A stretch of 62,140 bases of DNA from Ruminococcus sp. (GTDB lineage Bacteria; Bacillota; Clostridia; Oscillospirales; Ruminococcaceae). Below the pieces are notes generated by a model. It saw only the letters and a program-made list of their open reading frames with translations. It was not told where the DNA came from and did not search any database. Position numbers and translations under genes: made by a program. The stretch covers positions 1 to 62,140 of the forward strand of contig JAFTQW010000031.1 in assembly GCA_017462565.1 (NCBI GenBank). Direction: 5' to 3'. Positions 24,240-58,018 of this stretch are shown one piece after another (within the stretch, counting starts at the first letter, position 1; each line of letters starts with the position of its first letter).

Positions 24240-24884
24240 ATGTCAAAAAACTCGATATCAAACTCAGTGATCAGAAGGCTGCCAAGATATTACAGATTTC
24301 TCGGTGAACTGAAAGACGAGGGATATGTTCGCATATCATCGAGGGAGTTATCTGAAAAAATGGGACTTACTGCTTCGCAGATTCGTCAGGATTTCAATTG
24401 TTTCGGCGAATTCGGACAGCAAGGCTATGGCTATAATGTAAGCGCATTGCGTGAGGAGATATGCAAGATACTCGGACTGGATAAGCTTACGCCGATGATT
24501 CTTCTTGGAGCAGGAAATCTCGGAAAAGCAATTGCTGCACATCTTGATTTCAGCAGCAAGGGTTTTGAGCTTATCGGAGCATTCGACGTTAATCCGGATT
24601 TGATCGGTAAAGAAATTGGCGATATAACGATAAAAAGTTCGGATGAGATAGAAAGCTTCTGTGCTGAGGTATCTCCGGTTGCAGCAATTTTGTGTATACC
24701 TACGTCTGAGGCGGAGCAGATGACGGAAAGGCTTATAAAATGTGGAATAAAGGCTTTCTGGAACTTTACTCATTATGATTTGAGAGCTTCTCATAAAGAG
24801 GCAGCAGTTGAAAACGTTCATCTCGGAGATAGTCTTACAACTTTGTCGTATAGACTGAATTCGATGAATGTTAATGATCAATGA
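24240..24884 (+). CDS. rex: Redox-sensing transcriptional repressor Rex
   Basis: A 214-residue dimeric repressor that binds DNA when NADH/NAD is low and is released by NADH. The N-terminal winged helix (ISNSVIRRLPRYYRFLGEL, SRELSEKMGLTASQIRQD, FGEFGQQGYGYNV) and the Rossmann domain with LLGAGNLGKAIAAH (about 88-101) are classical. It is the last gene of the acn-icd operon, and a Rex-like palindrome overlaps that operon's promoter, so autoregulation is likely. Other probable targets are the fermentative genes, including the fumC-hdr-flx-frd operon downstream. Confidence 0.96.
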   Translation: MSKNSISNSVIRRLPRYYRFLGELKDEGYVRISSRELSEKMGLTASQIRQDFNCFGEFGQQGYGYNVSALREEICKILGLDKLTPMILLGAGNLGKAIAAHLDFSSKGFELIGAFDVNPDLIGKEIGDITIKSSDEIESFCAEVSPVAAILCIPTSEAEQMTERLIKCGIKAFWNFTHYDLRASHKEAAVENVHLGDSLTTLSYRLNSMNVNDQ

Positions 24885-24934: not shown

Positions 24935-25420
24935 CACATGAAATGAATGTGAATTTTTTATCAATCGCAAGACTGAGTTATTCCATATTGTATATTTTTA
25001 TATTCTATATCTATATATCATTATGTAAATTAATTATCATGAACTGATAAAAATCAATAAAGCGGTGAAAAAAGTCCTTTTCGGAAAAATACTCCGCTTT
25101 GCATAAATTCTGAAAACTAACGATAAATACAGATTTCTGCTTATTGATATTAATTACATTGCTGATAAAGGATCAAAGGAAAATATCAAATATCAGCACA
25201 GCTTGGAATATTAAAACTAATATGGTATAATTTAACATAATATTTTCAGATTTAGCGAATACAATTATAGTTAATTATATATTATTATATGAATAGCAAT
25301 ATTCTTAAACTGAATTTGAAATTATTCGGTCTTGCTGATATACTTATATTATGTAGTAAAATGCTGAAAATCAATAAAGCGATTTTTACAGAATAAACAA
25401 TTTTGGGAGTGGATATTACA
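24935..25420 (+). other. AT-rich non-coding region before fumC
   Basis: No reading frame is seen in this 486-base stretch. It contains a weak hairpin (AAAGCGG at 25059 and CCGCTTT at 25092), a strong promoter at 25203 with a 190-base untranslated leader, and a 15-base direct repeat AAAATCAATAAAGCG at 25050-25064 and 25367-25381, the second copy ending 39 bases before the fumC ATG. No known riboswitch was recognised. Confidence 0.6.
25203..25231 (+). promoter_or_regulatory. Promoter of the fumC-hdr-flx-frd operon
   Basis: TTGGAA and a perfect TATAAT are separated by 17 bases. The predicted start leaves an untranslated leader of about 180 bases. Confidence 0.75.
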
Positions 25421-26797
25421 ATGGAATACCGTATCGAACACGATTCTATGGGCGAAGTTAAAGTTCCTGCTGATAAGTACTGGGCTGCTCAGACAGAGCG
25501 CAGTCATGAGAATTTCCTTATTGGCGTTGGAATCGAAACAATGCCGAGAGAAATTACCCATGCGTTCGGAATTCTTAAAAAAGCGGCAGCTGTCGCTAAT
25601 CACAGCGTTAAACCTGAAAAAATGACTGATGAAAAGCTTTCTGCTATTTCAAAGGCGTGTGACGAGGTTATAAGCGGCTCTCTTAACGAGCATTTTCCTC
25701 TTGTCGTATGGCAGACCGGAAGCGGTACACAGTCTAATATGAACGCTAATGAGGTTATTGCAAACCGTGGAAATGAAATTGCCGGCTCAAAGCTGCTTCA
25801 TCCTAATGACGATATAAATATGAGTCAGTCCTCTAACGACACGTTCCCAACTGCTATGCATATTGCGGCAGTTATTGCGCTTGAGGATAAGGTTATTCCT
25901 GCTGTTGATACTCTTATTGATACGTTTAAGAGACTTGAGGACGAAAATGAAGGTATTGTTAAAAGCGGACGTACTCATCTTCAGGATGCTACTCCTATTA
26001 AATTTTCCCAGGAAATAAGCGGCTGGAGAGCTTCTCTCGAAAAAGACAGAAAAATGATACTTTCATCATGCGAAGAGCTTAAAGAACTTGCTCTCGGCGG
26101 AACAGCCGTTGGAACAGGACTTAACGCTCCGAAGGGATTTGCTGAAAAGGCAGCGGAGGCTATAAGCGAGCTTACGGGAAAGAATTTCGTTACTGCTCCT
26201 AATAAGTTCCACTCTCTTACTTCAAAGGACGAGATCGTATTTGCACATGGCGCTCTCAAAGCGCTTGCGGCTGATATGATGAAGATAGCGAACGATGTAA
26301 GATGGCTTGCATCCGGTCCTCGTGACGGCCTTGGAGAGATCTTTATTCCCGAAAACGAACCCGGTTCTTCAATAATGCCCGGAAAGGTAAATCCTACTCA
26401 GTGCGAACAGGTTACTATGGTTGCCGTACAGGTAATGGGTAATGATGTTGCAGTTGGTATGGCTGCCTCACAGGGAAACTTCGAGCTTAACGTGTTTATG
26501 CCTGTATGCGCATATAATTTCCTCCAGTCTGCAAGACTTCTTTCTGAGTCCATTCTTTCTTTCAATAAGAACTGCGCTGTGGGAATCAAGGCTAATAAAG
26601 AAAAAATGCACCATAATCTTCATAACTCTCTTATGCTTGTTACAGCTCTTAATCCATATATCGGATACGAGAATGCTGCGAAGACAGCAAAAAAAGCATT
26701 TAAGGATAATATTTCTCTTAAAGAAGCCTGCGTTGAGCTTGGATTCCTCAGCGAGGAGAAGTTTGACGAGGTTTTCCATCCCGAAGAAATGGTTTAA
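25421..26797 (+). CDS. fumC: Fumarate hydratase class II
   Basis: It interconverts malate and fumarate without an iron-sulfur cluster. The start is ATG 25421 (MEYRIEHDSMGEVKVP). The 458-residue protein shows the fumarase/aspartase signatures TGSGTQSNMNANEVIANRG, NMSQSSNDTFPTAMH, GRTHLQDATPI, GGTAVGTGLN and the active-site loop PGSSIMPGKVNPTQCEQ. It is first in the operon with the Hdr-Flx-fumarate reductase genes, so in the cell it most likely runs toward fumarate to feed that reductase. Confidence 0.96.
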   Translation: MEYRIEHDSMGEVKVPADKYWAAQTERSHENFLIGVGIETMPREITHAFGILKKAAAVANHSVKPEKMTDEKLSAISKACDEVISGSLNEHFPLVVWQTGSGTQSNMNANEVIANRGNEIAGSKLLHPNDDINMSQSSNDTFPTAMHIAAVIALEDKVIPAVDTLIDTFKRLEDENEGIVKSGRTHLQDATPIKFSQEISGWRASLEKDRKMILSSCEELKELALGGTAVGTGLNAPKGFAEKAAEAISELTGKNFVTAPNKFHSLTSKDEIVFAHGALKALAADMMKIANDVRWLASGPRDGLGEIFIPENEPGSSIMPGKVNPTQCEQVTMVAVQVMGNDVAVGMAASQGNFELNVFMPVCAYNFLQSARLLSESILSFNKNCAVGIKANKEKMHHNLHNSLMLVTALNPYIGYENAAKTAKKAFKDNISLKEACVELGFLSEEKFDEVFHPEEMV

Positions 26798-26876
26798 AAA
26801 TCTTTAGCAACAGATGATGTATGTATTGTGTTATTGGTATAGATTTTAAGATATTCACACGAAAGGAAGCGTACTT

Positions 26877-27674
26877 ATGAATACTTTCACATATTATCCC
26901 GGCTGTACGCTCAGAACTAAGGCTAAAGATCTTGACGCATATGCAAGGTCTTCTGCCGAGGCTCTTGGAATCATTCTTGAAGAGCCGTCTGACTGGCAGT
27001 GCTGCGGAGGTGCTTACACGACCGCAACTAACGAAAACGCAACAAAGCTTTCCGCTGTAAGAACTCTTAATGCGGCAAAGGAACTCGGCAGACCACTTGT
27101 AACGGTCTGTTCAGCTTGTCACAATGTAATAAAACAGACAAATTACGATATTTCCCGTGATGAGCAGATGGCTTTTAAGATAAACAATTATCTTAAGCTT
27201 GACGAGCCTTATAACGGCGAAACTACCGTTTATCACTATCTTGAAATGCTCCGTGATGTTGTTGGATTTAATAATCTTGCACAAAAGGTTGTAAATCCGT
27301 TCAAGGGCAAAAAGATAGCTGCATATTACGGCTGTCTGCTTCTTCGTCCATCTAAGGCTCTGGCTATGGACGATCCTGAAAATCCTACTATAATGGAAGA
27401 TTTCATAAAGGCTATCGGCGGAACTCCTGTTATTTACGCTCAGAGAAACGAATGCTGCGGCGGATACATAACAATGGAGGATAAGGCTCAGGCTGCAAAA
27501 AGAAGCGGCGCAGTTATGAACAGCGCCGAGGATCAGGGAGCTGATATGGTAATAACAGCTTGTCCGCTCTGTCTTTACAATTTAAAGAAGAATTCCGGTT
27601 CTTCACTTCCTGTTTACTACTTTACAGAACTTCTTGCCGAGGCTCTTGGCTTAAAGGAGGCAAATAATGAATAA
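26877..27674 (+). CDS. hdrB: Heterodisulfide reductase-like subunit HdrB
   Basis: A 265-residue protein with two CCG domains that in HdrB bind a pair of non-cubane [4Fe-4S] clusters. The first has YYPGCTLRTKAKD and WQCCGGAYTT with SACHN later; the second has YYGCLLLRPSK, NECCGGYI and ACPLCLYNL, so both CCG sets are complete. In methanogens HdrB reduces CoM-S-S-CoB; in bacteria without those thiols its electron acceptor is unsettled. Here the nearby fumarate reductase suggests it passes electrons toward fumarate, directly or via a thiol. Its end overlaps hdrC by eight bases. Confidence 0.9.
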   Translation: MNTFTYYPGCTLRTKAKDLDAYARSSAEALGIILEEPSDWQCCGGAYTTATNENATKLSAVRTLNAAKELGRPLVTVCSACHNVIKQTNYDISRDEQMAFKINNYLKLDEPYNGETTVYHYLEMLRDVVGFNNLAQKVVNPFKGKKIAAYYGCLLLRPSKALAMDDPENPTIMEDFIKAIGGTPVIYAQRNECCGGYITMEDKAQAAKRSGAVMNSAEDQGADMVITACPLCLYNLKKNSGSSLPVYYFTELLAEALGLKEANNE

Positions 27675-28050
27675 GAATCTTCAGGAACAGGTTATCAGAA
27701 CAAGCGGCGTTAACGTTCTTAAATGTATGCGCTGCGGAAAATGCTCCGGAACCTGCCCTTCGTATGACGAAATGGAATATCATCCGCATCAGTTTGTATA
27801 TATGGTTGAAAAGGGCGATATTGAAAAGCTTATGAATTCAAAGTCGCTTTACAAGTGCCTGACCTGCTTTGCCTGCGTTGAAAGATGTCCGAGAAATGTC
27901 GAGCCGGCAAAGGTTGTTGAAGCTGTTCGTCTTGCAGCAGTTCGTCAGCAGGGGAATAATCACCTTATACCGGATCAGATCCCGGATATGCTTGATGATG
28001 ATCTGCCGCAGCAGGCTATTGTTACAGCGTTCAGAAAATACACTAAGTAA
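27667..28050 (+). CDS. hdrC: Heterodisulfide reductase-like subunit HdrC
   Basis: A 127-residue electron carrier subunit with two [4Fe-4S] sites, CMRCGKCSGTCP (about 19-30) and CLTCFACVERCP (about 66-77). It links HdrA to HdrB in known complexes. The ATG overlaps the hdrB 3' end, with AAGGAGG upstream, so translation is coupled. Short length matches HdrC of the HdrABC-FlxABCD type. Confidence 0.9.
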   Translation: MNKNLQEQVIRTSGVNVLKCMRCGKCSGTCPSYDEMEYHPHQFVYMVEKGDIEKLMNSKSLYKCLTCFACVERCPRNVEPAKVVEAVRLAAVRQQGNNHLIPDQIPDMLDDDLPQQAIVTAFRKYTK

Positions 28051-28065
28051 GGAGGAGATAATACT

Positions 28066-30057
28066 ATGCAGAGAATAGGTGTTTTTGTCTGTCACTGCGG
28101 TACGAATATCGCAGCTACAGTAGACGTTAAGGCTGTTGCAGAAGCTCTTGGACACGAACCGGGCGTTGTTATCTCCCGGGAGTATCAGTATATGTGTTCA
28201 GAATCCGGACAGAATCTCGTTAAGGACGCTATAAAAGAACACAATCTTTCAGGCGTTGTTATCTGTTCATGTTCGCCGAGAATGCACGAAAATACGTTCA
28301 GAAAGGCTGCCGCTGCTGCCGGACTGAATCCGTATCTTGTTGAAATAGCAAACATCCGTGAGCAGTGTTCATGGATTCACAAGGATATAGCTACAGCAAC
28401 TGAAAAGGCTGTAATACTTGGAAGAGCTGCAATCGCAAAGGTTCATCTCAACGCTCCTCTTACAGCAGGAGAGAGTCCCGTTGTTAAAAGAGCGCTCGTT
28501 ATCGGCGGAGGAATCGCCGGAATCCAGACTGCGCTTGATATTGCCGAGGCAGGCTTCGAGGTCGATATTGTAGAAAAAGAACCGACTATCGGCGGTAAAA
28601 TGGCTCAGATCGATAAAACTTTCCCGACTCTTGACTGTGCCGCTTGTATTCTCACACCTAAAATGGTTGAATGCTCACAGAACGAAAAGATACATATTCA
28701 CTCTTTCAGTGAAGTTACAGATGTCAAGGGATTTGTCGGAAACTTCAGCGTTACGATAAAGAAGAAGGCTCGCTACGTTGACGAGACTAAATGTACCGGA
28801 TGCGGACTTTGTACAGAAAAGTGTCCGATGAAGAACGTTCCCAATGAATTTAATATGGGACTTGATAACAGAAGAGCAGTTTATATTCCTTTCGCACAGG
28901 CAGTTCCGAAGGTTGCTACAATTGACCCGAATTACTGTATGATGCTTAAAACAGGCAAATGCGGAGTCTGCTCAAAGGTTTGCTCAGTTGGAGCTATTGA
29001 TTATAAGCAGCAGGATAAGTTTATAGAAGAAAAATACGGCGCAATCGTAGTTGCAACCGGATTCAATCCTATAAAGCTTGATAAATACGAGGAATTTGCA
29101 TATTCTCAGAGTCCTGACGTAGTTACTTCTCTCGAGCTTGAAAGACTTATGAATGCCGCAGGTCCTAACGGCGGAACGCTTCTTCGTCCTTCTGATAAAA
29201 CTCATCCGCATACTATCGTTTTCGTACAGTGTGTCGGTTCAAGATGCGACGACAGCAAGGGTAAGCCTTACTGCTCTAAGATCTGCTGTATGTATACCGC
29301 AAAGCACGCAATGCTTATCCGTGAGAAATATCCGGATACAGAAGTTTATGTTTTCTATATTGATGTTCGTACTCCCGGAAAGAACTTTGATGAATTCTAC
29401 AGAAGAGCCGTTGAGCAGTACAATGTTCACTATGTTAAGGGAATGGTCGGCAAGGTAACTCCTAAATCGGACGGTAAGCTTGACGTTCAGGCATCCGATC
29501 TGCTTGCCAACGAACAGCTTCATATCGACGCTGATATGGTCGTTCTCGCAGCAGCTATCGAACCGGACAAAACAGCTCGTCCGCTTGCAACAATGCTCAC
29601 AACACAGATGGATACGAACGATTTCTTCACAGAAGCTCATCCAAAGCTTCGTCCTGTTGAAAGCGCAACAGCAGGTATTTTCCTTTCCGGAGCTTGTCAG
29701 GGACCAAAGGATATTCCTGAAACTGTTGCTCAGGCAAGCGCCGCTGCTGCAAAGGCTATCGGACTTCTCTGTAAAAACAGCATCACCTGCAATCCATGTG
29801 TTGCTCATTCCAACGAGCTTATGTGTAATGGATGTTCTTCATGTGAAAAGGTTTGTCCGTACGGAGCTATCACATATCAGGATAAGGAATTCAGAATGCC
29901 CGACCGTACAACTGCAATACGCAGAGTTGCAAGCGTTAATCCTGCCGTTTGTCAGGGATGCGGAGCTTGTACGGTAGCTTGTCCATCAGGAGCTATGGAT
30001 CTTAACGGCTTCTCTAACAGTCAGATTATGGCGGAGGTAGACGCAATATGCAAGTAA
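28066..30057 (+). CDS. hdrA: Heterodisulfide reductase-like subunit HdrA (flavin-bifurcating)
   Basis: A 663-residue iron-sulfur flavoprotein, the bifurcating subunit of Hdr complexes. It has an N-terminal cluster motif (VFVCHCGTNIA, later CSPRMHENTFR), the FAD-binding GGGIAGIQTALDIAEAG (about 146-162), FPTLDCAACILTPKM, and a ferredoxin insert CTGCGLCTEKCP. The thioredoxin-reductase-like flavin domain ends with GSRCDDSKGKPYCSKICC, and a C-terminal two-cluster ferredoxin has CNGCSSCEKVCP and CQGCGACTVACP. All expected cysteines are present. In characterised systems the flavin splits electrons between ferredoxin and a high-potential acceptor. The stop overlaps the next ATG. Confidence 0.92.
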   Translation: MQRIGVFVCHCGTNIAATVDVKAVAEALGHEPGVVISREYQYMCSESGQNLVKDAIKEHNLSGVVICSCSPRMHENTFRKAAAAAGLNPYLVEIANIREQCSWIHKDIATATEKAVILGRAAIAKVHLNAPLTAGESPVVKRALVIGGGIAGIQTALDIAEAGFEVDIVEKEPTIGGKMAQIDKTFPTLDCAACILTPKMVECSQNEKIHIHSFSEVTDVKGFVGNFSVTIKKKARYVDETKCTGCGLCTEKCPMKNVPNEFNMGLDNRRAVYIPFAQAVPKVATIDPNYCMMLKTGKCGVCSKVCSVGAIDYKQQDKFIEEKYGAIVVATGFNPIKLDKYEEFAYSQSPDVVTSLELERLMNAAGPNGGTLLRPSDKTHPHTIVFVQCVGSRCDDSKGKPYCSKICCMYTAKHAMLIREKYPDTEVYVFYIDVRTPGKNFDEFYRRAVEQYNVHYVKGMVGKVTPKSDGKLDVQASDLLANEQLHIDADMVVLAAAIEPDKTARPLATMLTTQMDTNDFFTEAHPKLRPVESATAGIFLSGACQGPKDIPETVAQASAAAAKAIGLLCKNSITCNPCVAHSNELMCNGCSSCEKVCPYGAITYQDKEFRMPDRTTAIRRVASVNPAVCQGCGACTVACPSGAMDLNGFSNSQIMAEVDAICK

Positions 30058-30494
30058 ATGATAATAAAGAATTTCAGCCGCTGATCGTTGCATTCTGCTG
30101 TAACTGGTGTTCCTACGCAGGAGCCGATCTTTCAGGCACAAACAGACTTAATTACCCGACAAATGTTAAAATCATAAGAGTCCCATGCTCATGCCGTGTA
30201 AATCCTATGTTTATTCTTCGTGCTTTCCAGAGAGGCGCTGACGGAGTTATTCTCTGCGGCTGTCATCCCGGCGACTGCCACTATACTTCAGGAAATTACT
30301 TTACACGCCGCAGGATGACTCTTCTTTTCAGTATGCTTGACTTCCTCGGAATCGAGCGTGACCGTACAAGAGTTGAATGGGTTTCCGCTGCTGAAGGCGC
30401 AAAATTCGCAGCAACTATGAACGAGTTTACCGAAGCTGTTAAAAAGCTCGGACCTAACCGCAGATTGGAGGATTTACGATGCAAGAAGCAATGA
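30048..30494 (+). CDS. flxD: MvhD/FlxD-type iron-sulfur subunit
   Basis: A 148-residue MvhD-family protein carrying a [2Fe-2S] cluster. The cysteines are in FCCNWCSYAGADLSGTN, RVPCSCRVNP and LCGCHPGDCHY. MvhD delivers electrons from a hydrogenase or, in Flx systems, from the NADH module to HdrA. It overlaps hdrA by ten bases and flxC by sixteen, consistent with a tightly coupled complex. No hydrogenase genes are near, so the electron donor should be the FlxA module below. Confidence 0.9.
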   Translation: MQVNDNKEFQPLIVAFCCNWCSYAGADLSGTNRLNYPTNVKIIRVPCSCRVNPMFILRAFQRGADGVILCGCHPGDCHYTSGNYFTRRRMTLLFSMLDFLGIERDRTRVEWVSAAEGAKFAATMNEFTEAVKKLGPNRRLEDLRCKKQ

Positions 30495-31450
30495 TCAATA
30501 AAGCAAAGCAGCTTCTGGCTGATGGAACAGTGAATCGTGTGATCGGCTGGAAAAAGGGCGAATTCGTATACGATATTACTCCGGCAATTTTTGAAACAGC
30601 AGAGGAGCTTGACGCTGATTTCGTTTACAATGAATTTACTGCTGCAAACGTTTCAAAATACCTTGTGAAGGAAAGCAAAAAAGAGGGTAAGATCCTTGCC
30701 TTCCTCAAACCCTGCGATACATACAGCCTTAATCAGCTCACAAAAGAGCACAGAGTTAACCGTGATAACATTTATGTTGTGGGAATTCCCGGCGGCCCTA
30801 AGCTTGACGCTGAAAAGATAAAGGCAAAGGGAATCACAGGCATCACAGGAATCAAGAATGAGAACTATACTTTGAAAATCGAAACAGTTTACGGCGAGCA
30901 GACAATGCCTTTCTATGAAGCTATAAGCGATAAGTGTGCATCCTGCAAGAGCAAAAAGCACGTTACTTATGATGAACTTATCGGCGAGGACGGCGATGTT
31001 CTTGAATCCAACCGCTTCGATATGGTTGAAAAACTCGAGAATATGACAGCTCAGGAGCGCTATGATTTCTGGAGAGCCGAACTTTCTAAATGTATACGCT
31101 GCAATGCCTGCCGCAACGTCTGTCCGGCTTGCACCTGTGAAAAGTGCGTATTTGATAATCCGGAGTCAGGAGTTGAGAATAAAGCTGCTTCAAACAGCTT
31201 TGAAGAGAATATGTTCCACATTATCCGTGCGTTTCATGTTGCCGGAAGATGTACAGACTGCGGTGAATGCTCAAGAGTTTGCCCTCAGAATATTCCTCTT
31301 CATCTCCTTAACAGAAAGTTTATCAAAGATATCAATTCGCTTTACGGCGAATATCAGGCAGGCGAGGATACTACAACAAAAGCTCCTCTCAATGCTTATA
31401 CTACAGATGACTGCGAAGCAAGTATCGTTCACGAAAGGGGTGTTGAATAA
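30479..31450 (+). CDS. flxC: FlxC-like iron-sulfur protein
   Basis: A 323-residue protein with an F420-hydrogenase-beta-like N-terminal half (AFLKPCDTYSLNQL, CASCKSKKHVTYDELIGED) and two ferredoxin-type sites, CIRCNACRNVCPAC (about 205-218) and CTDCGECSRVCP (about 258-269). This matches the extra iron-sulfur subunit in bacterial HdrABC-FlxABCD loci. FlxB and FlxC labels are interchangeable in places; the assignment here is by order. Its stop and the next start overlap as TAATG. Confidence 0.75.
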   Translation: MQEAMINKAKQLLADGTVNRVIGWKKGEFVYDITPAIFETAEELDADFVYNEFTAANVSKYLVKESKKEGKILAFLKPCDTYSLNQLTKEHRVNRDNIYVVGIPGGPKLDAEKIKAKGITGITGIKNENYTLKIETVYGEQTMPFYEAISDKCASCKSKKHVTYDELIGEDGDVLESNRFDMVEKLENMTAQERYDFWRAELSKCIRCNACRNVCPACTCEKCVFDNPESGVENKAASNSFEENMFHIIRAFHVAGRCTDCGECSRVCPQNIPLHLLNRKFIKDINSLYGEYQAGEDTTTKAPLNAYTTDDCEASIVHERGVE

Positions 31451-32469
31451 TGCTCAGAATTGCGATTGATAAAATTGACAGTCTTTTTGATGCAATTGCA
31501 GAAAAACAGACTCTTTATATTCCTGTTGACCGTGAAGACGGAGCTGCTGAATATAAAAAATATGAGAGCGGAATGAAAATGAGCAATTCTCTTAACACAC
31601 TCAGAAGTGCAAAGGATTTCTTCTTCCCTCAGACAGAGAATCTTGTTGAATTTAAAATGGAAGGCAAGCAGATCGAAGTAAAGGATATTCGTGAAGAATC
31701 TGAAGATTTCGTGATTTTCGGCGTTCGTGCCTGTGATGCAAGAAGTTTCTCCATTCTCGATAAAGTTTATCTTGTTGATCCGGTGGACAGCTTCTATAAA
31801 AACAGACGTGATCACGGTGTTGTAGTTTCAATGGCTTGCACACGTCCGGCTGAGACCTGCTTCTGTTCAGCTTTCGGAATTGATCCGACTGCTCCGGAGG
31901 GAGACGTTTCCTGCTGGAATGATGGAAGTTATATATACTTTGAGGCAAATACGGAAAAAGGAAAAGCATTTGTCGATTCTATCTCTTCTCTCCTTGAAGA
32001 CGGAGACGCTTCAAGCCTTGAAAATGTTAAGGCTGAAACAAAGAGAATTCTCTCGCTTCTTCCGCTTTCAAATCTTTCAACAGATTCGTTCGGCGGCGAC
32101 AAGCTTAATGAGTATTTTAATTCTGAAAAGTGGGCTGAGCTTTCAGAAAGCTGCATTGGATGCGGAACCTGTACGTTCGTCTGCCCGACCTGTCAGTGCT
32201 ATGATATAAAGGATTTCAATACGGGAAACGGCATAAAACGTTTCCGCTGCTGGGATTCATGTATGTATTCTGATTTTACAAAAATGGCTCACGGAAATCC
32301 GAGAATTTCTCAGCTTGAGCGTTTCCGTCAGAGATTTATGCATAAGCTTGTATATTTCCCGGCAAACAACAACGGCGAATTCGGATGCGTAGGATGCGGA
32401 AGATGCCTTTCAAAGTGTCCTATTTCAATGAATATCGTTAAGGTAATGAAAGCATTGGAGGTTAAGTAA
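31450..32469 (+). CDS. flxB: FlxB-like iron-sulfur protein (AsrA/HydB type)
   Basis: A 339-residue protein resembling the beta subunit of sulfhydrogenases and anaerobic sulfite reductase A. The N-terminal part has FGVRACDARSFSILDKVY and CTRPAETCFCSAFGIDP. The C-terminal half carries CIGCGTCTFVCPTCQCYD (about 236-253) and CVGCGRCLSKCPIS (about 316-329). These clusters would connect the flavin subunit that follows to the rest of the complex. TAATG overlaps occur at both ends. Confidence 0.8.
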   Translation: MLRIAIDKIDSLFDAIAEKQTLYIPVDREDGAAEYKKYESGMKMSNSLNTLRSAKDFFFPQTENLVEFKMEGKQIEVKDIREESEDFVIFGVRACDARSFSILDKVYLVDPVDSFYKNRRDHGVVVSMACTRPAETCFCSAFGIDPTAPEGDVSCWNDGSYIYFEANTEKGKAFVDSISSLLEDGDASSLENVKAETKRILSLLPLSNLSTDSFGGDKLNEYFNSEKWAELSESCIGCGTCTFVCPTCQCYDIKDFNTGNGIKRFRCWDSCMYSDFTKMAHGNPRISQLERFRQRFMHKLVYFPANNNGEFGCVGCGRCLSKCPISMNIVKVMKALEVK

Positions 32470-33314
32470 TGAACGCTAATGATACATTAATCCCGCATAT
32501 CGGAGTCGTTACTGATATCAGAATTGATACTCCCGATGTAAAGACTTTCAGAGTCAACGCAATAAACGCAGACGGAACGGTCGGCGGAAAGGTTTTCGAG
32601 CATATGCCCGGTCAGTGCGCAATGCTTTCTATTCCCGGAGTAGGCGAGGCTATGTTTTCCATAACTTCCTCTCCTACAAATAAGGAATTTATGGAATTCA
32701 GCATCAAGAAATGCGGCTGCCTTACAAACTGGCTTCACGCTATGGATGTTGGACAGCAGATCACTATAAGAGGACCTTACGGCAATGCTTTCCCTGTGGA
32801 AACAGAGCTGAAAGGCAAGGATCTTCTGTTTATCGCCGGAGGAATCGGTCTTGCTCCGCTCCGTTCGGTAATAAATTATGTTCGTGATAACAGAGCAAAC
32901 TACGGTGACGTTCAGATCGTTTACGGTTCCCGTTCTATGGATGATCTGGTTGATTACAAAGAGATCATTGATGAATGGATGACTGATGACGGAATCGAAG
33001 TCAATCTCACTATAGACAGAGAACAGGAAGGATGGGACGGTCACGTTGGATTCGTTCCAAATTATGTAAAGGAACTTAATCCGTCCTTAAACAAAACTGT
33101 CCTTATTTGCGGACCTCCGATCATGATCAAGTTCACGCTTAACGGTCTTAAGGAGCTTGGTTTCACTGAAACTCAGGTTTATACAACTATGGAGCTTCGC
33201 ATGAAATGCGGAGTCGGCAAGTGCGGACGCTGCAACATCGGAAATAAGTATGTCTGCAAGGACGGTCCTGTTTTCCGTTTTGACGAACTGGGCGAACTGC
33301 CTGACGAATATTAA
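32469..33314 (+). CDS. flxA: FlxA-like FAD/NAD(P)H oxidoreductase subunit
   Basis: A 281-residue ferredoxin-NADP reductase-fold protein of the AsrB/HydG type. FAD binding is suggested by MPGQCAMLSIPG and FSITSSP; the nucleotide-binding site is IAGGIGLAPLRSVINYV (about 118-134) and LICGPPIMIKF. A C-terminal [2Fe-2S] site has CGVGKCGRCNIG plus VCKDGP. It is the likely NADH (or NADPH) entry point of the Hdr-Flx complex. Cofactor preference cannot be told by eye. Confidence 0.85.
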   Translation: MNANDTLIPHIGVVTDIRIDTPDVKTFRVNAINADGTVGGKVFEHMPGQCAMLSIPGVGEAMFSITSSPTNKEFMEFSIKKCGCLTNWLHAMDVGQQITIRGPYGNAFPVETELKGKDLLFIAGGIGLAPLRSVINYVRDNRANYGDVQIVYGSRSMDDLVDYKEIIDEWMTDDGIEVNLTIDREQEGWDGHVGFVPNYVKELNPSLNKTVLICGPPIMIKFTLNGLKELGFTETQVYTTMELRMKCGVGKCGRCNIGNKYVCKDGPVFRFDELGELPDEY

Positions 33315-33330
33315 AAAGGAGCATCTAAGC

Positions 33331-34014
33331 ATGGAAAATATGGTAAATGTTTATCTGTTCGGCAAAAAGTATGAAGTGCCGGCAGGTCTTACAATAATGA
33401 CAGCTATGGAATATGCAGGCTATGAGCTTGTAAGAGGCTGCGGCTGCCGCAACGGTTTCTGCGGAGCTTGTGCAACAATTTACAGAATCAAGGATAAGCA
33501 GGAGCTTCATGCCTGTCTCGCTTGTCAGACAGAAGTTCAGGAGGGAATGTATGTCGCTACGCTTCCTTTCTTCCCGCTTGTAAAGCAGGTTTACAACATA
33601 AATGAAATCAAGCCCACAGAGCAGATAATGATGCAGCTCTATCCTGAGATTTACTGCTGTATCGGCTGTAATGCCTGCACAAAGGCTTGTACTCAGGAGT
33701 TGAACGTTATGCAGTATATTGCATATGCTCAGAGAGGCGAGTACGATAAGTGCGCCGAGGAGTCTTTCGACTGCGTAATGTGCGGAGTATGTTCTTCACG
33801 CTGTCCAGCCGGAATTTCTCATCCGCAGGTAGCTATGCTTGCAAGAAGACTTAATGGTAAATATATCGCTCCTGAATGCGAGCACCTTGCTGATCGTGTA
33901 AAAGAAATCAACGAAGGTATCTTTGATGAAAAGATCGCAGAGCTTATGGCTAAGTCGGTTGACAATATACAGGAAGTTAAAGACCTGTATAATTCCCGTG
34001 AGATCGAAAAGTAA
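33331..34014 (+). CDS. frdB: Soluble fumarate reductase iron-sulfur subunit
   Basis: Start chosen at ATG 33331 (MENMVNVYLFGKKYEV) after AAAGGAG; an earlier in-frame start would overlap flxA by 65 bases. The 227-residue protein has a plant-type [2Fe-2S] domain (RGCGCRNGFCGAC...CLACQ, about 30-66) and an alpha-helical domain with CIGCNACTKACTQ and CVMCGVCSSRCPAG (about 110-160). This is the SdhB/FrdB layout, but the opening is of the TfrB kind and there is no CCG (HdrD-like) extension. No membrane anchor gene follows, so it should be soluble and receive electrons from the Hdr-Flx complex. Confidence 0.85.
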   Translation: MENMVNVYLFGKKYEVPAGLTIMTAMEYAGYELVRGCGCRNGFCGACATIYRIKDKQELHACLACQTEVQEGMYVATLPFFPLVKQVYNINEIKPTEQIMMQLYPEIYCCIGCNACTKACTQELNVMQYIAYAQRGEYDKCAEESFDCVMCGVCSSRCPAGISHPQVAMLARRLNGKYIAPECEHLADRVKEINEGIFDEKIAELMAKSVDNIQEVKDLYNSREIEK

Positions 34015-34028
34015 GGAGGAGTATTGAT

Positions 34029-35633
34029 ATGTATAAAATCGAAAAGCTGAACGAGCTTGCAAAGGTTGTTGCTGAAAAAAGAGCTGAAAATGCAAGTCTT
34101 GAGCCAAGAAGAATGACAGCAGAAGAAAAGGATACCCTTCTTGCAACATTTCACCCTGATTATAAGCAGGATGAGTTCACAGTGCTTTCAGCAGGCGTAA
34201 ACAAGGGCGATAAGGTTCCTACTCAGCTTGCAGAACTTCTTCAGGGCAAAAGCAGAATCAGTGCATCAGACGTTGATTTAAGCAATCCTGATTACGACAC
34301 TGATGTTCTTATTATCGGCGGCGGCGGCGCAGGCGCATCTGCTGCTATCGAAGCTGACGAAGCCGGAGCAAAGGCAATGATCGTTACAAAGCTTCGTATC
34401 GGTGACGCAAACACAATGATGGCAGAGGGCGGTATTCAGGCTGCTGACAAGCCGAACGATTCTCCGGCTATTCATTACCTCGATGCGTTCGGCGGCGGAC
34501 ATTTTGCCGCTAAGCCTGAGCTTGTCAAGAAGCTTGTTACTAAGGCTCCGGAAGCAATTCAGTGGCTCAATAAGCTTGGTGTTGAATTTGATAAAGAAGC
34601 AGACGGAACTATGGTTACTACTCATGGCGGCGGCACATCCAGAAAGAGAATGCACGCTGCTAAGGATTATTCCGGTGCAGAGATCATGAGAACTCTTCGT
34701 GACGAGGTTCTCAACAGAGGAATTCCTGTAGTTGATTTTACAGCCGCAATCGAGATCATTCTTGATGAAAACGGAAAGGCTGCCGGCGCTGTTCTTATGA
34801 ACATGGAAACAAAGGAGCTTCTTGTTGCAAGAGCTAAAACAGTTATCATCGCAACAGGCGGTGCAGGACGTCTTCACTACCAGGGCTTCCCGACTTCAAA
34901 CCACTACGGTGCAACAGCTGACGGTCTTATTCTTGGCTACAGAGTCGGCGCAAAGCTTCTTTATGCTGATACTCTTCAGTATCATCCTACAGGAACAGGC
35001 TATCCGGAGCAGATCTTCGGTGCTCTTGTAACTGAAAAGGTTCGTTCGCTCGGCGCAAAGCTTGTTAATATCGACGGCGAAGTATTCATGCATCCGCTTG
35101 AAACTCGTGATGTAACAGCAGCTTCTATCATTCGTGAGTGTACAGCAAGAAATAAGGGAGTTGAAACATCTCTTGGCAAGGCAGTATGGCTCGATACTCC
35201 TATGATCGAATACAAGAACGGCGAGGGAACTATCGAAAAGAGAATCCCTGCAATGATGAGAATGTTCGGTAAATACGGAATTGATATCCGTAAGGAACCG
35301 ATTCTTGTATATCCGACTCTTCATTATCAGAACGGCGGACTTGATATTTCTGATGACTGTGCTACAGGCGTTGAGAATCTTTATGCAGCCGGAGAGGTTG
35401 CCGGAGGTATACACGGCAGAAACAGACTTATGGGAAATTCACTCCTTGATGTAATTGTATTTGGCAGAAATGCCGGAATTTACGCAGCTGCAAAGGCAAA
35501 GGAAACGGCTGTTCCTGAAAAACTCACACTTGCTCATATTGATAAATTTAACAAGGAACTTGCTGAGGCAGGAATTCAGAATGAAACTGCATCACCAATG
35601 CTCCTTCCCCATTATGCAAGAAAGTCAAAATAA
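34029..35633 (+). CDS. frdA: Soluble fumarate reductase flavoprotein subunit
   Basis: A 534-residue FAD protein that should reduce fumarate to succinate. It has an unusual N-terminal extension of about 95 residues, then the dinucleotide fold VLIIGGGGAGASAAIEADEAG. The segment ANTMMAEGGIQAA is where membrane FrdA has the His that holds FAD covalently (SHTxAAEGG); here that residue is Asn, so FAD is probably non-covalent. Substrate-site motifs TLHYQNGG, HPTGTGYP and GIHGRNRLMGNSLLD are kept. An L-aspartate oxidase role is the main alternative, but no nadA or nadC is near, and frdB directly precedes it. Confidence 0.87.
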   Translation: MYKIEKLNELAKVVAEKRAENASLEPRRMTAEEKDTLLATFHPDYKQDEFTVLSAGVNKGDKVPTQLAELLQGKSRISASDVDLSNPDYDTDVLIIGGGGAGASAAIEADEAGAKAMIVTKLRIGDANTMMAEGGIQAADKPNDSPAIHYLDAFGGGHFAAKPELVKKLVTKAPEAIQWLNKLGVEFDKEADGTMVTTHGGGTSRKRMHAAKDYSGAEIMRTLRDEVLNRGIPVVDFTAAIEIILDENGKAAGAVLMNMETKELLVARAKTVIIATGGAGRLHYQGFPTSNHYGATADGLILGYRVGAKLLYADTLQYHPTGTGYPEQIFGALVTEKVRSLGAKLVNIDGEVFMHPLETRDVTAASIIRECTARNKGVETSLGKAVWLDTPMIEYKNGEGTIEKRIPAMMRMFGKYGIDIRKEPILVYPTLHYQNGGLDISDDCATGVENLYAAGEVAGGIHGRNRLMGNSLLDVIVFGRNAGIYAAAKAKETAVPEKLTLAHIDKFNKELAEAGIQNETASPMLLPHYARKSK

Positions 35634-35651
35634 AAAATTAAATGAATTAAT

Positions 35652-35674
35652 GGGACGCTCTGAAAAAGCGTCCC
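35652..35674 (+). other. Stem-loop between frdA and the carrier gene
   Basis: An 8-bp perfect stem (GGGACGCT / AGCGTCCC) with a seven-base loop has no T tract after it. It may stabilise the upstream mRNA or partly attenuate the carrier gene 35 bases downstream. Confidence 0.55.
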
Positions 35675-35708
35675 ACAAATTTGTATAAAGAAAGCAGAGT
35701 GATAAAAA

Positions 35709-36917
35709 ATGGAATTTTTTAACGGAATCCTTTCGATTCACGGTGTTTCCTTCCTTATGGTTTCGGTTATCGCAATTGCGGCTTTGGGATATATATTGGG
35801 AAGAATCACTATTAAAGGAGTATCTCTTGGTACAGCCGGAGTTTTTATAGTTGCTCTTATTTACGGCTGTGTTTTCTATAAAAATCTTTCCAGTGAGATC
35901 AATACAGATTTTGTGGCAAATGCGTTGAAAATCGTTGATAACCTTGGACTTATTCTTTTTGTTACCGCAGTAGGCTTTATCGCCGGACCCAACTTCTTTG
36001 GTAATTTTAAGAAAAATTTCAAGTCGTATGTTGTGCTTGCCGTAATAATCATTTTAAGCGGCGGACTTGCCTGCGTAGGCTGTATATTAGTCGGAAGAAA
36101 TTTTACTACCCTTTCAAACGACGAATTTACGGCTATGCTTACAGGAATCTTGTCCGGAGCTCTTACAAGCACCCCAGGTTTTTCTGCTACAAAAGACGCT
36201 GTAGCAACAGAACATCTTCAGAGTCTGGTTTCAGTAGGCTACGGTATTGCTTACATTTTCGGAGTTATAGGCGTTGTTCTTTTTGTACAGATAATTCCTA
36301 AAGTTCTCAAAGCAGATATTAAAGCAGAGCGTGAAAAGCTGGTAGTTTCTGATTCAAAATCCGGAAAAAAAGCATATAACGGAAAGCTTATTGAAATGGA
36401 CGATTTCGGAATCATGCCATTTGCACTTGCAGCTGTTATAGGTATTATAATAGGTTCATTCAAGTTCAAGAATTTTTCACTTTCAACAACTGGCGGTTGC
36501 CTGCTGACTTCATTGATATTCGGTCATTTTGGAAGATGCGGAAAAATATCTATCATGCCTAAGGATTCAACCCTTAAGGTTTTCCGCGAGCTTGGACTGA
36601 TGTTTTTCCTTATAGGCGCAGGTGTTTCAGGCGGAGCGAAATTTGTTCAGTATTTCAAAGCTATCTATTTTGTTTACGGAATCATAATGACAATTGTACC
36701 AATGGTTATAGGTTTTATTTTTGCAAAATACGTTCTCAAACTCAGTCTGTTCAACAATCTTGGTTCGCTCACAGGAGGTATGACATCAACTCCGGCACTT
36801 GGTACTCTCATCAGTACATCCGGAACCGAAAACGTTGCTTCAGCTTACGCAGCAACATATCCTGTTGCACTTATTTCAGTTGTACTCGTTTCACAATTTT
36901 TGATAATGCTTTTCTAA
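35709..36917 (+). CDS. AspT/YidE-family carrier, putative dicarboxylate exporter
   Basis: A 402-residue membrane protein with about ten spans arranged as two related halves, each with the family pattern (GVSLGTAGVFIVALIYG; SGALTSTPGFSATKD; GLMFFLIGAGVSGGAKFV; SLTGGMTSTPALG). AspT-family carriers exchange aspartate/alanine or succinate. Typical members are about 560 residues with two central RCK domains; only a short cytoplasmic loop (EREKLVVSDSKSGKKAYNGK) is present here. Directly after the fumarate reductase genes, succinate export is the obvious guess. Substrate is inference. Confidence 0.8.
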   Translation: MEFFNGILSIHGVSFLMVSVIAIAALGYILGRITIKGVSLGTAGVFIVALIYGCVFYKNLSSEINTDFVANALKIVDNLGLILFVTAVGFIAGPNFFGNFKKNFKSYVVLAVIIILSGGLACVGCILVGRNFTTLSNDEFTAMLTGILSGALTSTPGFSATKDAVATEHLQSLVSVGYGIAYIFGVIGVVLFVQIIPKVLKADIKAEREKLVVSDSKSGKKAYNGKLIEMDDFGIMPFALAAVIGIIIGSFKFKNFSLSTTGGCLLTSLIFGHFGRCGKISIMPKDSTLKVFRELGLMFFLIGAGVSGGAKFVQYFKAIYFVYGIIMTIVPMVIGFIFAKYVLKLSLFNNLGSLTGGMTSTPALGTLISTSGTENVASAYAATYPVALISVVLVSQFLIMLF

Positions 36918-37112: not shown

Positions 37113-37970
37113 TCAGACTGATGTATCTTCAAGTGAAACCGTATGATTTTGTGCTTCGTTATTAGTGTAGTAGATTGCAATAGGCGTTATTATATATAGA
37201 TTATCATCCGATAGTGGCAAAATCGATCTTAGACTTTCATTTATGCCATGTTGTAAAGAAGCAAATGCGTTACTATTATCTTCTATATGAGTATCTTTGC
37301 CAATGATATTGGTGACATATCCTAAACAAGTCATTGATCCACCGTATTTAAAACCAAAGGATTCAGGATAGTCCCTTAAATACCTATCATCAATTGGTAT
37401 AATATACCCTTTGTTGGAAATATACATTCTATCACATGGTAGTATATTGTGAAGAAGTTTTATTATATCATCAATTTCTTTATACTTATTATCTATAGCA
37501 TCTTTAGCAACTCTTTTCCTTCTGCTGATCTCTTGCTGATTGTTTCTGCGTGCTTTTCTATTTAGTGATTCAAATTCGGTATCAATTTGTATTTTAATCT
37601 TTTTCAACTCTTCTTTTTTTATAAAATCAATTAATCCATTTTCATTAAAGTAGGAAACCAATGATTTGAAATCAATATATTGGAAATCACCGGATATCTC
37701 AACGTATTCTTCTAAATCTTTGACTTGTGCTTTGTTTAAGTGTTCAGAAATATAATCATAAGCAATATTGTAAGCAGCATCATGAAGAGTTTTTTGAACT
37801 ATATCCTTTGACACATGATTATCGTGTGTACCGTTTGTTTTTGTATGTTCATAGTCAAATTCTGCTTCTGCACCGAAAAAGCGATAAAATGTACTACTTA
37901 ATTTTGCAAGTGCTTCAACCTTTGTTTCTTTATCAAATGATTTTCCGCTACTGTTTTCGTTTTCATTCAT
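37113..37970 (-). CDS. Hypothetical protein (DUF6414-like)
   Basis: A 285-residue protein if started at the ATG at 37970; an in-frame TTG at 37985 is possible and lies closer to an AAGG. It has no membrane segment, a Lys/Arg-rich coiled middle (LNRKARRNNQQEISRRKRV) and a C-terminal domain with FKYGGSMTCLGYVTNIIGKD and NLYIITPIAIYYTN. It resembles DUF6414-type proteins of mobile regions, by memory. A MITE-like element begins about 20 bases upstream, so its native promoter may have been displaced. Confidence 0.6.
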   Translation of the reverse strand: MNENENSSGKSFDKETKVEALAKLSSTFYRFFGAEAEFDYEHTKTNGTHDNHVSKDIVQKTLHDAAYNIAYDYISEHLNKAQVKDLEEYVEISGDFQYIDFKSLVSYFNENGLIDFIKKEELKKIKIQIDTEFESLNRKARRNNQQEISRRKRVAKDAIDNKYKEIDDIIKLLHNILPCDRMYISNKGYIIPIDDRYLRDYPESFGFKYGGSMTCLGYVTNIIGKDTHIEDNSNAFASLQHGINESLRSILPLSDDNLYIITPIAIYYTNNEAQNHTVSLEDTSV

Positions 37971-38004
37971 GAATTCTGTAATCAAGCCTTGCTAAACTTG
38001 CGAT

Positions 38005-38260
38005 ATGATAGAATTAAGGAAGCACTGATTAAATCCAGTGCGCAGATTGCGCCGTCAGATTTTAATCTGTCGGTCAGCCCCTCTGTCAGCTTCGCTGACA
38101 CCTCCCCTGCAAGGGGAGACCACGTCAGATTGTATAGAAATGACGCAGGCAGGCTGACGCCTGTCAAGGAATTTCTGTGCAAGATGACGGGAAATATGCA
38201 AGCAAGATGCGTGCTGAGCCATCAGGCGTGATTTAATCAGTGATTCCTTAACTATATCAT
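38005..38260. mobile_element. MITE-like element with long terminal inverted repeats
   Basis: Core ends at 38014-38035 and 38230-38251 are a 22-bp inverted repeat (TTAAGGAA-CACTGATTAAATC) with one mismatch. It extends outward through three mismatches to ATGATA/TATCAT at 38005 and 38260. The interior has further palindromes, including CTGTCAGCTTCGCTGACA and CTCCCCTGCAAGGGGAG, and no credible gene. Such palindrome-rich 0.2-kb units are known from ruminococci and related gut Firmicutes. It would be moved by a transposase supplied elsewhere. Confidence 0.8.
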
Positions 38261-38302
38261 TATTCAGATATAAGAAATACTTCAAAACAATTCGTCTCCT
38301 AT

Positions 38303-39124
38303 TTAGTTAAAGCATTCTTCCAATATTTTATTAAGCTGAATCCTCAGTATATCAAATGATACATTTAAATCCAGCGTCCTCGCCCCAATCCTGTTCCCGC
38401 CAATCACAAACGGCTCGCCCTCCGGAAACACCTCGTCCTCGGTCTTGGCATAGAGCAGAAGCCCCGACACATTGCCCGTATTTGCAGTATCCATATTCTT
38501 AACATAGGCAAATATCTGATACAGATGTGCAGAGCGCAAGGTTTCTTTCGTGTAGTTCTGTGACAGTGACTTGCCGCAATACTTGGCATCAATGATAAGC
38601 GTTTTATCGCCTTTCTGCAAGGTGATATCTGTCTGCATTGTTGGAAGAAACTGTATCATCGTTTCATCTGGCTGTTCGGTAAGATTCCATTTCACCTGTG
38701 CAGACTTCGGATTCAGTTCGGGGTGATGCTGTTTGTAATACTCCAGAATGAACTTCTCATAAATCCGCTCCATATGCTCATCAGAAAAGGCAAGAAGTTT
38801 ATAGCTGCCGTCCTCTGTGGTCTGGAGCATTCCGTTCAGCACCAGATAGCAGATATTCAGTAGTAGCTCATAGTTGCGGTTATTTCGCTGATAGATCAGC
38901 CTGTTCCGCGCAATATGATCGGGCTGGATCAGCTTAACATTACCAAAGAATACTATCAGCTTTTTGAGTGCCTGTTTTCTTTCAGGTGCAACGTCTTCGG
39001 CACGAATAAGCCTATGTATCGTGACTTTCAGTATTTGATTATACAGGTTGTCCTCGGAGAACTCGTCAAACTCGCAGGATAGTTTCTGCTTTTGCTGAAC
39101 CTTTAACTTAATCGTATTGCTCAT
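38303..39124 (-). pseudogene. 5'-truncated mcrC (restriction system subunit)
   Basis: The 273-residue frame matches the middle and C-terminal part of McrC-like proteins: LSCEFDEFSEDNLYNQILK at the start, then the PD-(D/E)xK nuclease-like core MQTDITLQKGDKTLIIDAKYCG (catalytic Asp, then DxK). The N-terminal 80-150 residues normal for McrC are absent, and the partner McrB GTPase gene is missing. The frame opens two bases after the stop of the broken CHAT gene, so a deletion or recombination joined two damaged defence genes. Without McrB it is probably non-functional. Confidence 0.8.
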
Positions 39125-39126
39125 AT

Positions 39127-57976: not shown

Positions 57977-58018
57977 TTATTAGTGAAAATATTAAGATTT
58001 ATTTTAGGAAGTGAAAAA

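Follow-up and report, generated by a model that had tools for sequence, protein, structure and literature searches.

In PMC7282089, a 'succinate operon' of Pseudoclostridium thermosuccinogenes comprises genes for a fumarate hydratase, seven Flx-Hdr subunits, two fumarate reductase subunits and a putative succinate transporter. Ferredoxin-linked fumarate reduction is hypothesized there. The operon was upregulated about 4-fold when CO2 was limiting, though not significantly for every subunit, and a 2019 preprint is cited (10.20944/preprints201912.0288.v1). Here, the same set of genes was analyzed in a 62,140-nucleotide stretch of DNA from Ruminococcus sp. (assembly GCA_017462565.1, contig JAFTQW010000031.1), referred to as the window. 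It forms a putative operon of eleven genes, fumC-hdrBCA-flxDCBA-frdBA-aspT, at 25421-36917 on the + strand, which probably encodes a soluble, quinone-independent, electron-bifurcating NADH:ferredoxin/fumarate oxidoreductase. The gene set and the hypothesis are thus already published for P. thermosuccinogenes. That organism belongs to another genus, and the two operons are likened by a gene list in a figure legend and not by sequence comparison. The present analysis adds the spread and strictness of the linkage, a permuted cluster, the swapping of fumarases, an argument from the FrdB and HdrB clusters, tests for DsrC and UbiA, and Rex-like operators.

Several other systems share parts of this arrangement. 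Fumarate reductase genes also lie among flx and hdr genes in Thioflavicoccus and in tubeworm symbionts (tfrAB-korABCD-flxABCD-hdrABC), for which PMC6315080 suggests direct shuttling; those clusters, however, occur in Gammaproteobacteria and in a reductive tricarboxylic acid cycle setting with kor genes. The type-E enzyme SdhABE, the 8-methylmenaquinol:fumarate reductase of Wolinella and Campylobacter, likewise combines a 10-cysteine CCG protein with an SdhB that has a second [4Fe-4S] cluster (PMC2680327). That enzyme is membrane-associated, carries a twin-arginine motif and serves quinones, whereas no twin-arginine motif was seen by eye at the N terminus of FrdA and the window genome gave no UbiA match. 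FlxABCD-HdrABC of Desulfovibrio vulgaris has all seven subunit types, but it is reportedly linked to ethanol metabolism and to DsrC, whereas here the genes share one operon with frd and fumarase genes, and DsrC was not found above cut-off. In Bcd-EtfAB, which uses NADH, crotonyl-CoA and ferredoxin, an exergonic C=C reduction similarly pays for the reduction of ferredoxin, according to reviews. To our knowledge, the Bcd-EtfAB proteins are unrelated to Hdr-Flx-Frd. No biochemical test of the present complex was found in the open-licence literature, and the passage of a 2020 review (PMC7174568) that lists acceptors driving ferredoxin reduction does not name fumarate.

Operon structure and linkage in Clostridia

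The window genome is Ruminococcus flavefaciens-like (2.63 Mb). The closest named locus comes from an R. flavefaciens metagenome-assembled genome; identity is 98-100% for the fumC, Hdr, Flx and Frd proteins and 95% for aspT. An earlier sequence-only reading of the window had listed the eleven genes in this order and in a single direction, and all of them were confirmed. The genes acn, idh and rex lie 5' of fumC, all on the + strand. The features are as follows.

24240..24884, + strand: rex, NADH/NAD-sensing repressor, directly 5' of the operon (PF06971 and PF02629 above cut-off)
25421..26797, + strand: fumC, class II fumarate hydratase (PF00206, PF10415)
26877..27674, + strand: hdrB, two CCG domains with the 10-cysteine motif, predicted non-cubane clusters (PF02754 twice; HdrB structures 8rvv and 5odc)
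27667..28050, + strand: hdrC, two [4Fe-4S] (PF13183; TIGR03290 71.5 bits, under the cut-off of 160)
28066..30057, + strand: hdrA, subunit with FAD and Fe-S clusters at which bifurcation is presumed to occur (5odc_A, E 9e-210; HdrA2 model 804 bits, under the cut-off of 1100)
30048..30494, + strand: flxD, MvhD-like [2Fe-2S] adaptor (PF02662, E 2e-55)
30479..31450, + strand: flxC, [4Fe-4S] protein (PF13183; conserved Cys)
31450..32469, + strand: flxB, [4Fe-4S] protein, sulfhydrogenase beta / AsrA-like (PF17179; NF040829 175.6 bits, under the cut-off of 690)
32469..33314, + strand: flxA, FAD/NAD(P)-binding, predicted entry of NADH (PF00175, PF00970, PF10418; NF006220 and AsrB-like below cut-offs)
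33331..34014, + strand: frdB, [2Fe-2S] domain and an HdrC-like dicluster domain that carries a second [4Fe-4S] motif
34029..35633, + strand: frdA, fumarate reductase flavoprotein without the covalent-FAD His and without a PF02910 match (PF00890; TfrA model 348 bits, cut-off 718)
35709..36917, + strand: Asp-Al_Ex carrier of the AspT/YidE type, presumably exporting succinate or exchanging dicarboxylates (PF06826 twice)

Between hdrB and frdA the spacing ranges from -16 to +16 nt. Overlapping starts, as the sequence-only reading had described them, were seen for hdrB/hdrC (-8 nt), hdrA/flxD (-10), flxD/flxC (-16), flxC/flxB (-1) and flxB/flxA (-1); the remaining pairs are separated by gaps (fumC/hdrB 79 nt, hdrC/hdrA 15, flxA/frdB 16, frdB/frdA 14 and frdA/aspT 75). 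The start of frdB was placed at 33331, where the conserved MENMVNVY begins, so that frdB does not overlap flxA. Many relatives align with the longer frame only from residue 26-28, and in some the additional 5' part is interrupted by a stop. For fumC, the start is ATG 25421 with the Shine-Dalgarno-like GGGAG before it, and not TTG 25403. A 12-bp hairpin at 35650-35676, without a T run on the + strand, lies between frdA and aspT and may set their expression ratio.

Linkage was surveyed in 391 Clostridia genomes with thresholds of E <= 1e-20 for FrdB and E <= 1e-60 for HdrA. FrdB and HdrB were each found in 54 genomes, 52 of them in common. In all 54 FrdB-positive genomes, FrdB was clustered with flx genes, and hdrB was found in 52. 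Both misses lie at contig ends: the contig of G071 carries flx genes and that of G379 hdrA and flx genes, and each ends before hdrB. The same applies to the two cases of HdrB without FrdB, as G032 breaks in flxA and hdrB of G224 lies 23 nt from the end. Neighborhoods were examined by tblastn in the 53 further FrdB-positive genomes and in 80 named loci, which include more than one from the same genome (L050 and L082). The sequence-only reading had proposed conservation of the gene order in relatives as a check, and the nine core genes were indeed found in the window order in 63 of the 80 named loci and in 41 of the 53 genomes. A further 17 named loci and 11 genomes are truncated, their genes breaking off no more than 100 nt from where the contig ends. 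G269 (locus L153) holds all nine genes in the permuted order frdBA-hdrBCA-flxDCBA. The conservation of gene order is far beyond chance. In a few loci (L040, L050 and L140), one gene matches in two pieces. Within the genus, FrdB was present in 107 of 125 genomes, and in 64 of 68 high-quality genomes.

The L153 copy, well suited for enzyme comparison, is divergent, with 34-60% identity per subunit, and class I fumarase genes stand before its frdB.

Hdr without Frd served as a control. HdrA was detected in 59 of the 391 genomes, namely in 53 of the 54 FrdB-positive ones, in G032 (cut by a contig end), in G022 and, as partial matches in longer frames, in G037, G065, G070 and G155. Control cases were thus limited to G022 and the four partial matches. 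In G022 (L171), HdrA has 48% identity. Neither frd nor flxABC accompanies its hdrA-flxD, and the adjacent genes were judged by eye to be GlcD/GlcF-like and glycine-cleavage-H-like; this may be an Hdr unit that works with an oxidoreductase of the lactate/glycolate type.

Subunits and electron path

All seven subunits of HdrABC-FlxABCD are co-encoded. The 10 cysteines of the two HdrB CCG domains are invariant in 109 aligned sequences (the last one in 108 of 108 readable), both motifs being complete, and the 8 cysteines of HdrC are kept in 110 of 110. The best NCBIfam match of HdrB is SdhE (143 bits, cut-off 500). FlxA has FAD and NAD(P)-binding domains, and oxidation of NADH with reduction of ferredoxin is predicted for Flx-Hdr. 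HdrA aligns with 5odc_A over residues 3-660, its full length, with the CxxCxxCxxxC motifs kept. This match to the HdrA of solved Hdr complexes speaks against the possibility that the complex forms but does not bifurcate, and acts as a plain NADH:fumarate oxidoreductase or with reduced ferredoxin as donor. Electron transfer from NADH to fumarate alone is strongly exergonic, and many Fe-S centers are no direct proof of splitting; however, HdrA, HdrC, HdrB and FlxD would be superfluous for a plain NADH route, and we regard a complex of this kind as quite unlikely.

In FrdA, His319, Glu336, Arg339, His432 and Arg466 are present in 127 of 127 sequences. Arg360, present in all 34 sequences aligned, was taken as the Arg of the PRD motif from the NadB alignment, while the phmmer alignment places that region differently. 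We take these residues to be the catalytic His, Arg and Glu. The position of the covalent-FAD His is occupied by Asn128 in 127 of 127 FrdA sequences, and no match to PF02910 (Succ_DH_flav_C) was obtained at E <= 0.001. E. coli FrdA that has lost the covalent FAD bond reportedly keeps fumarate reduction and is weakened in succinate oxidation; because Asn128 replaces the His, FrdA of the window should run toward succinate.

The missing His and PF02910 match could also suggest that FrdA is an L-aspartate oxidase or another FAD_binding_2 enzyme, and the nadB and sdhA_frdA models score equally (276 bits each, both below cut-off). However, the best model is TfrA, and the genes lie in a fumarase and mdh context. 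The Glu of the EGGHS region, presumably an active-site residue of L-aspartate oxidase, is His199 in 127 of 127 sequences, whereas Glu is present in 5kxj and in the NadB-like protein of the same genome, the only other FrdA-like protein found there. L-aspartate oxidase identity was rejected on these grounds, and an identity of FrdA other than fumarate reductase is extremely improbable.

As in TfrAB, the thiol:fumarate reductase of methanogens, the parts of a fumarate reductase and of an Hdr appear together. The TfrB model matches piecewise, to FrdB with positions 18-94, to HdrC with 131-220 and to HdrB with 264-487, at 36 of 385 bits for FrdB and HdrB and 33 of 385 for HdrC. In contrast to methanogen TfrAB, the subunits are separate here, no match to MCR alpha was found and the scores stay under the family cut-offs. 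FrdB has the [2Fe-2S] cysteines and two CxxCxxCxxxC motifs and hence a second [4Fe-4S]; quinone-linked SdhB as a rule has a [3Fe-4S] in its place. Foldseek and VIA matches of the FrdB structure model are scattered over many [2Fe-2S] and dicluster proteins, SdhB being absent among the VIA matches listed, and the second half of the modeled protein may resemble HdrC or SdhB. Because the cysteine pattern is type-E-like and TfrB unites the same parts in one chain, direct transfer from HdrB to FrdB is proposed.

Metabolic context and Rex-like operators

The genes around the operon were counted in 31 loci with enough flanking sequence, G269 standing outside this count. A fumarase is encoded nearby in 26 of them, either class II (fumC, upstream, 16 loci) or class I (fumA-fumB, 10 loci), and never both. 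Class I genes as a rule lie downstream of the operon; in G269 they are upstream. The fumarase is swapped for a non-homologous one, which points to fumarate chemistry rather than to one protein partner. In relatives, mdh-like genes stand upstream; mdh was found in 23 of the 31 loci and an aspT or DASS carrier in 20. The Asp-Al_Ex carrier is less tightly linked; of 50 loci with sufficient sequence, 33 have it no more than 4.5 kb downstream. All 32 mdh-like genes encode Arg at the lactate/malate dehydrogenase specificity position, which we take to mark malate dehydrogenase, and they were named on this basis; the one protein scored by NCBIfam gave 345 bits for lactate dehydrogenase vs 273 for malate dehydrogenase.

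The sequence-only reading had FrdAB working without a membrane anchor and without quinones. This agrees with the window genome, where UbiA gave no match (the control was positive in 14 of 14 known genomes) and neither did the Sdh_cyt anchor, the only anchor family searched. The anchor and quinone that characterize quinol:fumarate reductases of types A-E were thus not found by these searches. Methanogen-type genes had also been described as absent, which holds as far as MCR alpha, without a match in the window genome; genes for CoM/CoB biosynthesis were not searched.

That reading had left room for a thiol pair linked to fumarate as the acceptor, and a thiol/disulfide partner might also take the place of fumarate. 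HdrB does have both complete CCG domains, as in disulfide-reducing Hdr, DsrC is named as the partner of the Desulfovibrio complex in a reference title, and the tfrAB-flx-hdr clusters of PMC6315080 belong to sulfur symbionts. However, DsrC was above cut-off in 0 of the 54 FrdB-positive genomes and MCR alpha gave no match in the window genome, these being the only thiol systems searched, and the linkage to frd is strict. With no known carrier found, a thiol partner is unlikely, and fumarate is retained as the preferred acceptor.

Standard potentials of +33 mV for fumarate/succinate and -320 mV for NAD (PMC5861303), with an assumed ferredoxin potential of -420 to -500 mV, give a computed standard free energy of bifurcation of -49 to -33 kJ/mol. 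The window genome also encodes rnfCDGEAB (RnfC by profile, the other rnf genes by eye from the list of open reading frames) and a GTP-dependent phosphoenolpyruvate carboxykinase; the ATP-type enzyme was not found in it.

Rex senses NADH, and its sites were scanned for with TTGTTAA-N4-TTAACAA, which we take to be the clostridial consensus, allowing <=2 mismatches. Among the 80 named loci, 44 have rex ahead of fumC. A Rex-like site lies between the two genes in 27 of these 44, corresponding to 27 sites in 20.0 kb, whereas the other 842.6 kb of these loci contain 3. In the other genomes, a site was found <=700 bp upstream of the first gene (mdh, fumA or hdrB) in 21 of 45 loci. Twelve of these have <=1 mismatch. 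Mononucleotide shuffles predict 0.76, and 7 more sites occur in 663.7 kb. The loci are related, so these counts are not independent. The Rex-like operators follow whichever gene is first (mdh, fumC, fumA or hdrB; L113-L169, L003-L082), and perfect palindromes occur in L134 and L165. Two features of the window itself were defined by alignment with relatives.

25268..25285, + strand: degenerate counterpart of the relatives' Rex-like operator, TAGTTAATTATATATTAT, 5 mismatches by hand count (alignment with 6 relatives)
25316..25344, + strand: TTGAAA-17-TATACT, a conserved promoter-like site whose second hexamer is preceded by TG (seven aligned sequences)

An operon start at 25203, as proposed earlier, has to be moved; a promoter-like match exists there, but the conserved pair is at 25316-25344 and the fumC ATG at 25421. 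The Rex-like sites support the view that NADH is the donor and needs to be disposed of, and putative Rex binding probably switches the operon on at high NADH in the relatives. The same sites would be expected if Hdr-Flx and FrdAB were separate enzymes, merely co-regulated by Rex and both disposing of NADH. According to PMC4215793, Desulfovibrio alaskensis uses a menaquinol-linked Frd and also has Hdr/flox. However, a separate FrdAB needs another donor, the window genome has no UbiA or Sdh_cyt match, and among the 54 genomes no FrdB was found outside the flx cluster. Co-regulation of separate enzymes is therefore very unlikely, and one complex of Hdr-Flx with FrdAB is preferred.

Elsewhere, the window encodes a 909-amino acid protein that combines a TIR domain with TPR repeats (3123-5852, +). 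A block on the opposite strand (37113-40962, -) includes genes for a McrBC-type protein (PF10117) and for one with DUF6414; the five open reading frames tested with PADLOC gave no match. Two tyrosine integrases (44177-45277 and 48589-50571, +) lie near GHKL-domain genes and a C39 peptidase-ABC exporter (57983-60265), likely a mobile element and peptide-export region. An Rfam scan of the window yielded tmRNA only.

Proposed electron flow and meaning for succinate formation

We infer the following course for a complex that HdrABC, FlxABCD and FrdAB would form. Electrons from NADH would enter at FlxA and pass through FlxB/C and FlxD to the HdrA flavin, where each pair would split. One electron would go to ferredoxin. 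Its partner would travel via HdrC and both non-cubane clusters of HdrB to FrdB and on to FrdA, which would reduce fumarate. In sum, 2 NADH + fumarate + oxidized ferredoxin would give 2 NAD+ + succinate + reduced ferredoxin. Fumarate would be supplied by FumC, succinate would probably be exported by the Asp-Al_Ex carrier, and Rnf would turn the reduced ferredoxin into an ion gradient. The proposal of the sequence-only reading that fumarate is the high-potential acceptor of Hdr-Flx gains support, all of it genomic, from the FrdB-flx linkage in 54 of 54 genomes, the fumarase/mdh context, the intact FrdA residues, the missing Sdh_cyt, UbiA and MCR alpha matches and the count of 0 of 54 for DsrC.

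Several observations weigh against this scheme. Linkage and shared regulation are equally expected if Hdr-Flx and Frd cooperate without touching. The Hdr, Flx and Frd proteins mostly match NCBIfam models below the curated cut-offs, FrdB resembles SdhB weakly (TIGR00384, 26.8 bits, cut-off 88), and its structure model is weak (predicted local distance difference test 72.9, predicted TM score 0.45). No FrdB match was obtained in 18 of the 125 genus genomes, 4 of them high-quality, and hdrA of L140 (G173) is split into two matches, of which one contains a stop, from decay or assembly error. No fumarase was found in 5 of the 31 loci, two of which lack any context gene sought. UbiA was above cut-off in 5 of the 54 FrdB-positive genomes, and G179 has a DsrC match below cut-off (21.8 of 24.9 bits). 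RnfC was above cut-off in only 27 of the 54; the fate of ferredoxin therefore differs, and other outlets are needed elsewhere. Rex-like sites are missing from 17 of 44 and 24 of 45 loci, the window's own site is degenerate, and a scan of the window alone gave 16 matches with <=3 mismatches vs 11.5 expected, a frequency not above chance, the signal being confined to the relatives.

On balance, we lean toward a soluble nine-subunit machine in which HdrB passes electrons directly to FrdB, with fumarate instead of a disulfide as the high-potential acceptor. It would correspond to TfrB split into FrdB, HdrC and HdrB on an NADH module. Switched by Rex, it would give those Ruminococcus that form succinate, and many further Clostridia, their main quinone-free, energy-gaining route to this product. 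Cellulose is converted to succinate by R. flavefaciens (PMC7174568), yet the genome of the window has no UbiA or Sdh_cyt match. If the proposal is true, succinate formation would also give reduced ferredoxin and, via Rnf, an ion gradient, calculations of ATP yield and hydrogen balance in rumen fermentation would change, and metabolic engineers would have a compact fumarate-reducing module.

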